Assembly: GCA_903921675.1 (NCBI GenBank) | Contig: CAIXQW010000116.1 | Span: 1-36,371, forward strand | DNA from: an uncultured bacterium | Lineage (GTDB): Bacteria; Bacteroidota; Bacteroidia; Chitinophagales; Chitinophagaceae | Direction: 5' to 3' | DNA length: 36,371 nt | Notes under the pieces: model-generated | Seen by the model: only the letters and a program-made list of their open reading frames with translations | The model's database searches: none | What the model was told of the DNA's origin: nothing | Made by a program: the position numbers and the translations under genes | Shown: one piece after another, positions 9,552 to 15,609 of the stretch | Layout: every line of letters starts with the position of its first letter | Numbering within the stretch: position 1 is the first letter of the stretch

Positions 9552-11234
9552 TTATCCTTTCACAACTTCTTTAGCCCAACTATCTTTTAGCCCCACTGTT
9601 TTATTAAAAATCAAGTTTTCGTAAGTGCTATTTTTATCTAAACAAAAATATCCTAAACGCAAAAACTGAAATTTATCGGAAGCTATAGCCTTTGCTAATT
9701 CGTTTTCTATTTTGGCTTCTTTTACAATTTGCAAACTATTTTCGTTGATGTAATCTTTAAAATCGCCATCCTCTGCATTTGGGTTTTCTACTTTAAATAA
9801 TCTATCATAGATGCGCACTTCAGCTGTTTTGCAGTTGTTGGCATCCACCCAATGTATTACACCTTTTGCTTTAATGCCACTTGTATCGCTGCCGCTTTTA
9901 CTATTTGGCGCATAGGTGCAATGCACTTCTGTAATATTGCCATTGTCGTCTTTTGTAAAACCTGTACAAGTAACAATGTATGCACTTTTAAGTCTTACAG
10001 ATAATCCAACGCCTAAACGGAAAAACTTTTTAGTTGGCTCTTCCATAAAGTCGTCTTGCTCTATATACAAGGTATTGCTGAATGATAAATTTCTTGTACC
10101 TGCATTTTCGTCTTCGGTGTTATTTTCTGTTGGCAATAATTCTGAATTGCCTTCTGGATAATTGGTAATAATTAATTTGATTGGGTCTAATACAGCCATT
10201 CTGCGTAAAGATATTTTATTTAAATGCTCTCTGACACAAAATTCAAGCAATCCAATATCTATTAATTTATCTCTTTTGCTAACACCAACTCTATCGCAAA
10301 ACTCACGAATAGCTTCTGCGGTATAACCTCTGCGGCGCACCCCGCTAATTGTTGGCATACGAGGGTCATCCCATCCATCTACATGTTTTTCGTTTACCAA
10401 TTGCAATAATTTTCTTTTACTCATTACTGTGTAATTGATATTTACTCTTGCAAATTCGTATTGCTTACTTGGGAAAATTTCCAGCTTTTCTATACACCAA
10501 TCATACATGGCGCGATGAGGAATAAATTCTAAAGTACAAATGCTATGGGTAATATTTTCTATACTGTCGCTTTGCCCATGTGCAAAGTCGTACATTGGAT
10601 AAATACACCATGCATCGCCTGTGCGATGATGGTGTGCATGTTTGATTCTGTAAATTAATGGGTCGCGCATAATCATATTCGGATGCGCCATATCTATTTT
10701 TGCACGCAATACTCTTTCTCCATCTGCAAATTCTCCAGCACGCATTTTCGCAAATAATTCTAAATTTTCTTCAACGCTTCTATCTCTAAATGGGCTATTG
10801 ATACCAGGTGTATGCAAATCGCCTTTTTGCGCTGCTATTTGTTCGCTACTACTATCGTCTACATAAGCCAATCCTTTTTTTATTAAGTCTGTAGCAAAAG
10901 TATATAATTGTTCAAAGTAATCACTTGCATACAATTCATTAGCCCAATCAAAGCCAAGCCATTTAATATCTGCTTTAATGCTTTCTACATATTCTGTTTC
11001 TTCGGTTACAGGGTTGGTATCATCAAAACGCAAATTGGTTTTACCGCCAAACTTTTTAGCCAACCCAAAGTTTAAACAAATGCTACTACTATGCCCTAAA
11101 TGCAAATAACCATTCGGCTCTGGTGGAAAGCGAGTTAAAACTCTACCATTGTGTTTGCCTTCCTGAATATCTTTTTCTATTATCTCTTCTAAAAAATTTA
11201 AACTTTTGTCGTCGTTTATTTCGTTTGTATGCAT
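9552..11234 (-). CDS. glnS: Glutamine--tRNA ligase
   Basis: TRFPPEPNGYLHLGHSSSICLNFGLAKKFGGKTNLRFDDTNP, YVESIKADIKWLGFDW, VMSKRKLLQLV, GWDDPRMPTISGVRRRGYTAEAIREFC. The track start at 11243 is a TTG; ATG 11234 (MHTNEINDDK) preferred. Confidence 0.97.
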   Translation of the reverse strand: MHTNEINDDKSLNFLEEIIEKDIQEGKHNGRVLTRFPPEPNGYLHLGHSSSICLNFGLAKKFGGKTNLRFDDTNPVTEETEYVESIKADIKWLGFDWANELYASDYFEQLYTFATDLIKKGLAYVDDSSSEQIAAQKGDLHTPGINSPFRDRSVEENLELFAKMRAGEFADGERVLRAKIDMAHPNMIMRDPLIYRIKHAHHHRTGDAWCIYPMYDFAHGQSDSIENITHSICTLEFIPHRAMYDWCIEKLEIFPSKQYEFARVNINYTVMSKRKLLQLVNEKHVDGWDDPRMPTISGVRRRGYTAEAIREFCDRVGVSKRDKLIDIGLLEFCVREHLNKISLRRMAVLDPIKLIITNYPEGNSELLPTENNTEDENAGTRNLSFSNTLYIEQDDFMEEPTKKFFRLGVGLSVRLKSAYIVTCTGFTKDDNGNITEVHCTYAPNSKSGSDTSGIKAKGVIHWVDANNCKTAEVRIYDRLFKVENPNAEDGDFKDYINENSLQIVKEAKIENELAKAIASDKFQFLRLGYFCLDKNSTYENLIFNKTVGLKDSWAKEVVKG

Positions 11235-11240
11235 AGGGTG

Positions 11241-11248
11241 CAAAGGTA
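11241..11248 (-). promoter_or_regulatory. -7 box (TACCTTTG on minus strand) 6 nt from the glnS ATG
   Basis: Minus strand reads ccTACCTTTGcaccctATGcat. Confidence 0.6.
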
Positions 11249-11553: not shown

Positions 11554-12123
11554 TTAGTGTATTCCAATATTTTTTTTACAATTATCACAAAACCAAATTT
11601 TTTCTTGGTCTACTTGTTTGATTTTTCCTCTTGCATCATTCATCATACATTTTTTATCAAAATTGCAGTGTACTAAACCAAGATTATGTCCAATTTCGTG
11701 TAAACAAACTTTAGTTACTCTATCGTAAAATTTATCTTTCGAAACATTTCTTTTTAATCTAAATGTGGATACAACACAAGTAACACCTGGCCGATACCCC
11801 AAACCAAAAATCCCCCACTCATGTATACTTCCTTTTTCACAAGCAATATCTTTTTCAGTGATAATAAGTAAATTTTCAGTGGACTTGTATTTTTTTAAAA
11901 TTCTACTTGCTTCATATCTGGTTCTGCTATCAGCCAAAATTTCATTTGTAAAATTTACTTTTGGTTTAACTATACAGTTGAAACCATAAAATTGCTCAAC
12001 AGATGATTTAATTACATTGATAACTTGTGTGGAAACTTCTCCCAATGGTTGAATGAAAATATTTTTTTGAGCTTGTAGTGTTAAACTTAAAAAAATTAAA
12101 AGTGATACGATTATTGGTTGCAT
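11554..12123 (-). CDS. Archaemetzincin-like zinc metalloprotease with signal peptide
   Basis: Motif HEIGHNLGLVHC-NFDKK-CMM-(17 aa)-CDNC matches HExxHxxGxxHC...CxM-X17-CxxC (AMZ family), with X5 instead of the usual X4 before the second Cys. N-term MQPIIVSLLIFLSLTLQAQ is a signal peptide. Confidence 0.88.
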   Translation of the reverse strand: MQPIIVSLLIFLSLTLQAQKNIFIQPLGEVSTQVINVIKSSVEQFYGFNCIVKPKVNFTNEILADSRTRYEASRILKKYKSTENLLIITEKDIACEKGSIHEWGIFGLGYRPGVTCVVSTFRLKRNVSKDKFYDRVTKVCLHEIGHNLGLVHCNFDKKCMMNDARGKIKQVDQEKIWFCDNCKKNIGIH

Positions 12124-12573: not shown

Positions 12574-15500
12574 ATGAAAAATTATATCTCAATTTTGTTT
12601 GTGCTGTTGTTGTGTTGTTTTGGAAAATTTTCAAAAGCTCAGGTAACTATAAATAATATTACAACTACTATGCCCTCATGTTGGGGTTCTTGTAACGGGT
12701 CATTAAATATAAATGCAACCGGAAATGGAGGACTAACATATCAAATTAGTGGATATAATCCTCAGTCAAGTCCATTATTTGTTAGCTTATGCCCATCTAT
12801 TTATACAGTTACTGTAACAGATGCAATGTCATTTACTGCTACTTCTACAATTGGGGTTTGGAATCCTAGCCAATTTACTATTTCTACTAGTTTAATTACA
12901 CAACCGTCATGTACAACATTAGGATCTATTTGTTTTTATGGTTATGGAGGAGTGCTCCCTTATACATTTAATATTGGTCCAAATGTTGGCACATTATCTT
13001 CCAATTGTTTTAGTAACCTAACTCCAGGTTCTTATTCAATTATGGGGGTTGATGCAAATGGTTGTACATCATTTATTTCAGGAGTTACTATGAATAATTC
13101 TCCAACCCTTTCCGTTACAGGTTTTAAACTCACCGATTCCTCTTGCGCAGGCGGCCTCTCCAAAGCAAAAGTAAATGTTACAGGTGGTACACCGCCATAC
13201 TCTTACTCTTGGAATACCAATCCAGTGCAAAACAATGATACTGCATTTAATATTCCAGCAGGTTCTTATACATGTACTGTTGTAGATAATGGTGGTTGTA
13301 ACAATACTACAGTGGTGCATTTTCAAGGCAATAATCAATGGTATGTAGTAGCAGATACTATTTGTGTAAATGAGCAAGGGTATAGCTATCTAGCACAAAA
13401 CTATGGCAATGCACCATTTGGTACAGGTACTACTGTGCAGCCTACTTTTGGTGCTGCGGTATATTCTAACGCAATTTTATTTACACCGCCTACTACTACT
13501 ATCTATACTGTAACCGGCAGCACAGCTGGCTCTTGCCAAACACAAGCTACAGTTACAATTGTTGTTAAAAGTCTGAATAATGCAGCAAGCTTAGTAAGTA
13601 CAGACCCTAATTGTGCAAATAGTCATGATGGCAATGTAGTGGTAAATGTTTCTCCCCCAAATCCTAATCTCGATTATTTTTGGAGTAATAATAGCAATAA
13701 CAATACAGCATTTAATTTAAATTTAAATCCTGGACAATACAGTGTAATGGTAAGAGATAGCGCCATTAATGGTTGTATGATTTTAAAAGACACACTTGTG
13801 GCACTTGGCACAAATTGTGGCGATATTGTTGGTAAAATTGTATGGGATAGCAATGCCAATTGTGTGATGGATGCAGGTGAAATTGGTGTAGCAAATGCCA
13901 AAGTTGTGATTAACCCTGGTGGCTATTTTACGTATACTAATGGGGCTGGTAATTACTATTTTAATGGTGTAGCTTATGGAACTTATACATTAGTAAATAC
14001 GCCAAATGCCATTTCTTTTTCTAATGCTTGTACCAATAATGTTGCCACTACCATCAATAGCGGCAACCCAGTAAGTACAGTTAATTTTTTAGATTCATTT
14101 AATAACACAGTGAACTATCATATTTACGAATTTGGACAATGCATGAGTTTTGCACAAGGTGTAGATTATAAATTTCTTACCTATGGTCATAATGTAATTG
14201 GTCAAACATTCCCTGCGCAAATATTTGCAGTGTTCGATTCTATACAGCAGTTTGCAAGTAGCGTGCCAGCAGCATCTAGCATTAGTGGTGATACTGTTTT
14301 TTGGAATGTAAATGTGGGGCCAAGTTTCAATCAAATAAAAATTAATTTTAATATTACTGGCTCTACACCAATTGGTACAGCATACCATGTAAATGCTGGC
14401 TATAGCAGTTACACTGGCACCGATTTAGATTCTACCAATAACAAAATAAACTTTACGGTATTTGCATGTGTATCTGCAGATCCAAATAATAAAGAAGTAA
14501 GTCCTGCTGGGCAATTAGCACAAGGCTATATTCCTAAAGAAGAAAAAACAATGAACTATAATATCAACTTTCAAAATACAGGTAATGCGCCTGCCGTAAA
14601 TGTAGTAATTGTAGATACTATCAGTAGTAAGTTAGATATAAGTACCTTGCAAGTGCTTGGTGCTAGCCATTCTTATTTTGTAGAAATTAAAGACTCAATT
14701 GTAAAGTTTAAATTTCCTTTAATAATGCTTCCTGATAGCGTGTATGATGAACCTAATAGTCATGGGCATATTACCTATACCATCAAACAAAAACCAAATT
14801 TAAGTATTGGCTCTGTAATGAAAAACACAGCACATATTTATTTTGATTATAATACGGCAATAGTTACTAATACTACTACCAATACTATCTATGATCATTT
14901 ATCTAACAACCCAACAGCCACATTCCGCAATACTAGCTGCAACTTGCCTTGTGGCAATGGTGCAATTGTAATGCAAAGCATTGGTGGTGTTTCTCCTTAT
15001 AGTTATTCTATTACACCATCTTGTGGTAATACTACTGTAAATGGCAATCAAATTAATAATTTACTAGGTGGCACTTACACAGTGCAAACCATAGATGCAA
15101 TAGGCAACTCATTGACGAATGTTTCCATCATTCAAAATCCAATACCAATTGTCTTAAACCTATCCACAACCCAACCTATTGGGCAACTAGGCAGTGCTAG
15201 TTTAGCACCTACTGGTGGCACCCCTCCTTACGATTACCTTTGGTTGCCAGGCAACTTTACAACAAGTAGTATTAGTGGTTTAGGTGCTGGAAATTATTCT
15301 GTAAATATTGTAGATGCCAATGGATGCTCTGATAGTACTAGTTTTATTTTGAATTATGCTACATCAATGCAAGATATGAAGGCAGGAGAATGGTTGCAGT
15401 TGTATCCTAATCCAGCCAATAATGCCTTGAACATAGAAGCCAATTTCCCATTACAAGTTATATTAATTTATAATCAACAGGGCCAAGTTGTAATGAAAGT

Positions 15501-15609
15501 AATTGCAGATCAAAACCAAAAAATAGCAATTCCTTTAACCCAACTTGCAAAAGGAATTTATACTATGCAAGTTGGCAAAGGAGATGTAAAAAGATTTACT
15601 ATACAATAA
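12574..15609 (+). CDS. SprB-repeat / SdrD-B-like / DUF11-like (DUF7619-type) surface protein with T9SS type A sorting domain
   Basis: Signal peptide [23 protein letters not shown]; SprB repeats; [69 protein letters not shown]...[23 protein letters not shown]-term [34 protein letters not shown]...[21 protein letters not shown]. Confidence 0.9.

Follow-up and report, generated by a model that had tools for sequence, protein, structure and literature searches.

Archaemetzincin gene and its surroundings

The window, that is the whole analysed stretch of 36,371 nucleotides from an uncultured member of the Chitinophagaceae, carries a gene for an archaemetzincin between glnS and a gene for a T9SS cargo protein. 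The original prediction described it as standing alone there, with no obvious partner. Both flanks and the lack of a partner beside the gene are confirmed, and no YkuD gene was found among the identified neighbours in the window. The features are as follows.

11554..12123, reverse strand: archaemetzincin gene (M54 zinc endopeptidase), 189 amino acids, ATG start
12070..12123, reverse strand: predicted signal peptide, residues 1-18, with cleavage after LQA-18 deduced from sequence
12040..12060, reverse strand: IFIQPLG, residues 22-28, first beta strand of the domain (alignment and model strand 21-27)
11776..11778, reverse strand: C116, extra cysteine in PGxxC (branch comparison and alignment)
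11668..11700, reverse strand: HEIGHNLGLVH catalytic zinc motif, residues 142-152 (invariant residues in 62 sequences)
11578..11667, reverse strand: Cys4 second metal site C153, C159, C179, C182 and Met-turn M161 (62-sequence alignment)
9552-11243, reverse strand: glnS, flank
12574-15609, forward strand: Por_Secre_tail/SprB cargo gene, flank

The encoded protein begins with MQPIIVSLLIFLSLTLQAQKNIFIQPLG and ends with CDNCKKNIGIH. Its ATG is preceded by only 8 codons after the upstream stop codon, and no other start lies 5' of the conserved domain in ORF 11554-12123. Hence, the hydrophobic N-terminus (MQPIIVSLLIFLSLTLQA-QKNIFIQPLG) is part of the protein, and the concern raised with the original prediction, that the signal peptide might be absent from the true N-terminus, is not borne out. 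TATCTTTG, located at -12 to -5 relative to the ATG, resembles a promoter element but was set aside, since no -33 element supports it.

The motifs follow in the order HEIGHNLGLVH-C-NFDKK-CMM-(17 residues)-CDNC, with five residues (X5) between C153 and C159 and 17 (X17) between M161 and C179. The AMZ signature and both spacers had been read correctly before, and the I-PLG feature corresponds to IFIQPLG at residues 22-28. In the 62-sequence alignment H142, E143, G145, H146, G149 and H152 are invariant, as are C153, C159, C179 and C182, and M161 is present in at least 90% of the sequences.

Family assignment and fold

The window protein is an archaemetzincin (MEROPS M54, PF07998). Its membership is settled by sequence, profile and fold, all of which agree with the predicted archaemetzincin-like protease in a Bacteroidota genome. 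The Pfam match reaches 50.1 bits (E 4e-13; gathering cut-off 24.4), AfAmzA is matched by phmmer with E 1e-16, and the proteins of known structure nearest to it in sequence are AfAmzA, MkAmzA and MlAmzA. The archaemetzincin model NF033823 is matched at whole length with 117.9 bits (E 4e-34), below its curated cut-off of 145, which places the protein outside this NCBIfam subfamily model.

An AlphaFold2 model was built from the 62-sequence alignment. Its mean pLDDT is 94.5, being about 97 from residue 21 onward and lowered only in the N-terminal 20 residues or so. The top five PDB fold matches are solved archaemetzincin chains (E 3e-15 to 7e-12), and the next metzincin follows at E 2e-3. Membership of another metzincin family, for example a matrixin or reprolysin-like one, had been named as the finding that would overturn the prediction, and Pfam, with weak hits to PF00413 and PF13582, does point that way. 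However, both hits are under cut-off, the M54 profile is far better, the Cys4 motif is present, and archaemetzincin structures are the best matches by far. Another family is thus refuted by Pfam, phmmer and the PDB fold comparison, and we give it practically no weight.

The protein has the HEXXHXXGXXH motif with its catalytic Glu, the four cysteines (C...C-x-M...CxxC) and the archaemetzincin fold, but it departs from the published consensus of X4 and then X17 by its X5/X17 spacing. The X4 that served as the earlier reference is itself not constant among solved structures, as MkAmzA has X4 and AfAmzA has X3 (HC-SNN-CVM). By its own residue numbers (C128, C132, C151, C154) AfAmzA is spaced X3/X16 (PMC3427221), so that the published X4/X17 is not strict. 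Relatives range over X3-X6 and X12-X17. The exact X4/X17 spacing is not treated here as defining for M54.

Predicted export signal and the exported branch

A hydrophobic 9-mer in the N-terminus has a mean Kyte-Doolittle value of 3.46. The n-region has no Lys or Arg before the hydrophobic stretch, as is also the case in 3 of 93 relatives. Residues 1-49 hold no cysteine at all, so the Bacteroidota lipoprotein pattern is missing and it is reasonable to assume that signal peptidase I cleaves at LQA-18/Q19. The C-terminal sorting domain Por_Secre_tail finds no match in the protein, and T9SS export was rejected for want of this tail. Export via a signal peptide is very likely, and we regard it as well supported. 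For the same two reasons, the lack of both tail and lipobox Cys, "exported, probably periplasmic" fits better than the term "secreted" used in the original prediction.

M54 proteins were gathered from the own relatives of the window genome and from its phylum. In the tree, the proteins from the window genome's own class group together (34 rows, support 95/86), as do those from the remaining classes of the phylum (41 rows, 97/97). A protein was scored as having an export signal if, in the alignment, 18 or more residues preceded the IxIQP strand, with a hydrophobic 9-mer averaging at least 1.9 on the Kyte-Doolittle scale. Such a signal is present in 113 of 123 sampled archaemetzincins of the class Bacteroidia (a set to which later loci were added) versus none of the 41 cytosolic ones. 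Most of the 10 exceptions look like start-site or contig truncations, and one of them, L053b, is a cytosolic-type protein that was placed in the wrong set. Many members of the exported branch are lipoproteins. A cysteine at the C116 position occurs in 98 of 123 exported versus 0 of 41 cytosolic proteins and in at least 90% of the 62-sequence alignment. A second exported form of about 290-320 amino acids has an extra N-terminal domain (GDWLxxHxExGQTFEQ) and its own clade (99/99), with L046, L055, L059-L061, L064, L065, L068, L070, L071, L014 and L006 as members.

X5/X6 sub-branch

Among the first 71 proteins X5 was unique to the window protein. A single-sequence scan of genome contigs with the window protein gave no match, and a wider scan of named genomes and viral contigs, with a nine-sequence alignment as the query, then revealed a whole X5/X6 sub-branch. 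It comprises 40 rows (support 100/96), in which genes from scattered Bacteroidota chromosomes stand together with genes from T4-type phage contigs. In two of its phage members the spacer has become X4, and a few X5 cases lie outside it. The closest cellular copy, from Mucilaginibacter flavidus, is 61% identical to the window protein. X5 as an oddity of this protein or a sequencing error is thus rejected. Both the signal peptide and X5 had been noted as unusual traits; the observations stand, with export very likely and X5 correct, while their rarity does not, as export is the rule in the Bacteroidia branch and X5/X6 in the own sub-branch. They are clade traits.

Copies on phage genomes

Relatives are encoded by 33 IMG/VR contigs, the best being 63% identical over residues 22-182 of the window protein, so that phage copies are as close to it as the best cellular ones (63% versus 61%). 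Of 23 contigs tested, 9 encode the T4-type major capsid protein gp23, among them the ones behind L169 (148 kb), L179, L181, L184 and L196 (322 kb), and the large terminase TerL (phrog_2) is found on three (behind L176, L179 and L186); the remaining contigs, with neither marker, are fragments whose phage status rests on the IMG/VR classing. Phage copies carry signal peptides or lipoprotein signals. The window protein has no match among annotated phages (INPHARED) or plasmids, so that phage copies are known here from IMG/VR contigs only, and no convincing family was found in PHROGs.

Parsimony on the sub-branch tree requires at least seven changes between virus and cell. Six phage rows without any cellular gene form the sister clade of all other sub-branch members, and elsewhere phage and cellular genes interleave; the inner forks, which would show the direction of transfer, are without resolution, and the outgroups are cellular.

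Many unrelated phage ORFs share an N-terminal tag such as MKKIIRLTESDLIKIVKQVLLEQ, which was seen in 21 of 286 phage versus 0 of 272 cellular ORFs, at loci including L169, L174, L176, L181, L182, L189 and L190. Its L/I-x-E end resembles the T4 prohead protease site, so the tag may be a capsid-targeting one.

L,D-transpeptidase genes beside archaemetzincin genes

Recurrent neighbours were found by clustering the ORFs around archaemetzincin genes, followed by an HMM scan of all loci. An L,D-transpeptidase domain (YkuD_2, PF13645; 146 bits) is encoded directly downstream of the archaemetzincin at L101, L103, L111, L112 and L131, at the last of these by the HMM scan. L131 is a partial gene that was placed in the X5/X6 sub-branch by its X5/X17 motif and 51% identity. 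At L111 the two genes overlap by 4 bases. At L088 a different, classical YkuD with PDB YkuD matches lies directly downstream. Altogether a YkuD or YkuD_2 neighbour is present in 6 of 30 cellular sub-branch loci versus 0 of 125 other archaemetzincin loci (Fisher p 3e-5, which treats related loci as independent; the conservative count gives p 0.007). Since these genomes have about 2-5 such genes per several megabases, adjacency is expected by chance in only about 0.07 of 27 loci, and it is observed at four or more separate points in the cellular tree. The other 24 of the 30 cellular loci, as well as the window, are without a YkuD neighbour. Thus, either the coupling can be dispensed with or it acts in trans.

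In 12 of 13 distinct phage sub-branch loci a YkuD-like gene of 356-476 amino acids adjoins the archaemetzincin. A His and a Cys are invariant among its products, with the order and surroundings expected of a YkuD site, and hhalign to 19 YkuD domains gives an end-to-end score of 23.5 versus at most 12.0 in 40 block-shuffled decoys. A peptidoglycan-binding domain (PG_binding_1, E 1.5e-16) is present in 2 of 11 of these neighbours. The small YkuD_2 profile alone finds no match in them. The AlphaFold model is of low quality (pLDDT 66.5). None of its Foldseek matches is significant, and the named ones feature L,D-transpeptidases prominently. By profile and motif the phage neighbour is probably a YkuD enzyme.

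Two further kinds of proteins were seen at cellular loci. DUF5715 proteins adjoin the archaemetzincin/YkuD_2 pair (L103:6157-6777, L111:693-1340, L112:4187-4834) and contain S-x-H-x2-G-x3-D, reminiscent of M15 cell-wall peptidases. Elsewhere a 196-residue protein with no family assigned ends directly before the archaemetzincin start (L100:4270-4860, L102:2300-2890, L107:4279-4869); its pattern LGHGSQ...CNAD is suggestive of a caspase-like fold.

Origin of the window copy

The form of the sub-branch is found in 2 of 299 genomes of the family, the window's and G546 (53% identical), and the matches in the other 63 family genomes with any are at most 49% identical. The gene has a GC content of 28.6% versus 35% around it, and a GC3 of 18% versus 28.5% in glnS. 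This patchy occurrence and low GC fit, without proving, horizontal transfer, by which the gene was probably acquired. A prophage location was rejected, the neighbours being glnS, tatC, SOD, uvrC and the like. Five YkuD matches (PF03734) exist in the window's genome, all on other contigs.

Proposed role and alternatives

We suggest that the window protein is an exported periplasmic zinc endopeptidase from a mobile sub-branch that acts jointly with L,D-transpeptidases on the wall or on proteins linked to it, the explanation towards which we lean slightly. The active-site-complete archaemetzincin would leave the cytoplasm with its Sec-type signal peptide, which signal peptidase I would remove, and the mature protein would fold in the periplasm as a soluble single-domain enzyme. 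The X5/X6 sub-branch would move between Bacteroidota chromosomes and T4-type phages, the lone copy in the window genome being probably a horizontally acquired one. L,D-transpeptidases form 3-3 cross-links or attach proteins to peptidoglycan. The archaemetzincin might cut proteins or peptides that are attached to, or control, the peptidoglycan these enzymes modify, the simplest joint role being the release or trimming of wall-linked proteins or the processing of the transpeptidase. It might also cut peptidoglycan peptides directly, for which we know of no precedent among metzincins. AMZ-tk was reported to cut casein and to have antibacterial activity (PMC4681839), and the latter is compatible with the wall model without being specific to it. 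In a stricter form, which we offer only tentatively, the exported archaemetzincin and the L,D-transpeptidase would be a mobile two-gene wall module circulating between Bacteroidota and their T4-type phages, in which the former cuts wall-linked proteins or peptides that the latter makes or anchors.

The protein might instead be an ordinary exported archaemetzincin degrading periplasmic or environmental peptides, the YkuD neighbours of its relatives reflecting only operons rich in envelope genes and sharing no pathway with it. Most members of the exported branch, and the window gene itself, have no such neighbour, and the neighbours at cellular loci vary widely. However, the recurrence of YkuD in separate places of the cellular tree and in nearly all phage loci, its absence from archaemetzincin loci elsewhere and the small chance expectation argue against this, and we find it somewhat unlikely. 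The function might instead be primarily that of the phage, for example receptor shaving, superinfection exclusion or lysis support by an exported envelope-modifying protease, the chromosomal copies being captured. The sister position of the phage-only clade, the interleaving of phage and cellular genes, the signal peptides on phage copies and the low GC of the window gene would fit, but the inner forks leave the transfer direction unsettled, the outgroups are cellular, and the viral contigs are mostly fragments. We rate this as unlikely.

Archaeal archaemetzincins showed no activity on standard substrates (PMC3427221), and therefore activity is not assured for the window protein. Myxococcus CarG is a non-proteolytic homologue of the same fold family, and the window protein might likewise be a zinc-binding scaffold or an enzyme held inactive. 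We note that CarG has Gln in place of the catalytic Glu (PMC3427221), while none of the 62 sequences deviates at Glu143 or at any of the three His, and that NF033824, the model for non-proteolytic archaemetzincin-like proteins, scores 51.8 bits against a curated cut-off of 250. Hence, we consider this improbable and prefer the exported wall-acting protease.

Relation to known archaemetzincins

Archaemetzincins occur from archaea to humans and have no agreed substrate. The structural literature regards the family as chiefly archaeal, with bacterial examples being very rare (PMC3427221), and bacterial ones, even from Flavobacterium, are already known (PMC4681839). A literature search, incomplete in coverage, found no report of an exported branch, phage copies or a link to L,D-transpeptidases. 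In the present data archaemetzincins make up a large exported Bacteroidia branch, of which one sub-branch is carried by T4-type phages and adjoins L,D-transpeptidase genes; the sharing of this sub-branch between chromosomes and phages is the new point. Should the coupling be genuine, it would give the search for archaemetzincin substrates a concrete compartment and pathway; if the two-gene module is true, it would be the first defined cell-wall role of an archaemetzincin, with the first phage archaemetzincins.

AfAmzA of Archaeoglobus fulgidus (PDB 3zvs, 4axq, 4a3w) shares with the window protein the fold (TM 0.92 normalised to AfAmzA, rmsd 1.9), the HEIGH-H zinc site, the Met-turn and the four cysteines. 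However, it has no signal peptide, has Ala at the C116 position and is about 29% identical. MkAmzA (2x7m) and MlAmzA (3lmc) have the same family and fold and are more distant, the former with X4/X16 spacing and about 22% identity. Other exported Bacteroidia archaemetzincins, such as those of Limnovirga soli and Flavobacterium sp. H122, belong to the window's branch and mostly have the extra Cys, but they differ by X4, a second spacer of X15 to X17, a lipobox Cys in many, no YkuD neighbour and an identity of mostly 30-45%. The T4-type phage proteins (contigs behind L169, L179, L181, L184 and relatives) share X5/X17, a signal peptide or lipoprotein signal and at most 63% identity, and differ by lying on phage genomes beside the YkuD-like gene. 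Export also raises a structural question, namely whether the Cys4 site keeps its zinc in the oxidising periplasm or forms two disulfides, as in the metzincins compared by Graef et al.

Last, very divergent archaemetzincins with X4/X12 spacing were seen on large phage contigs, at L195/L196 (the 322 kb viral contig), L197 and L198.
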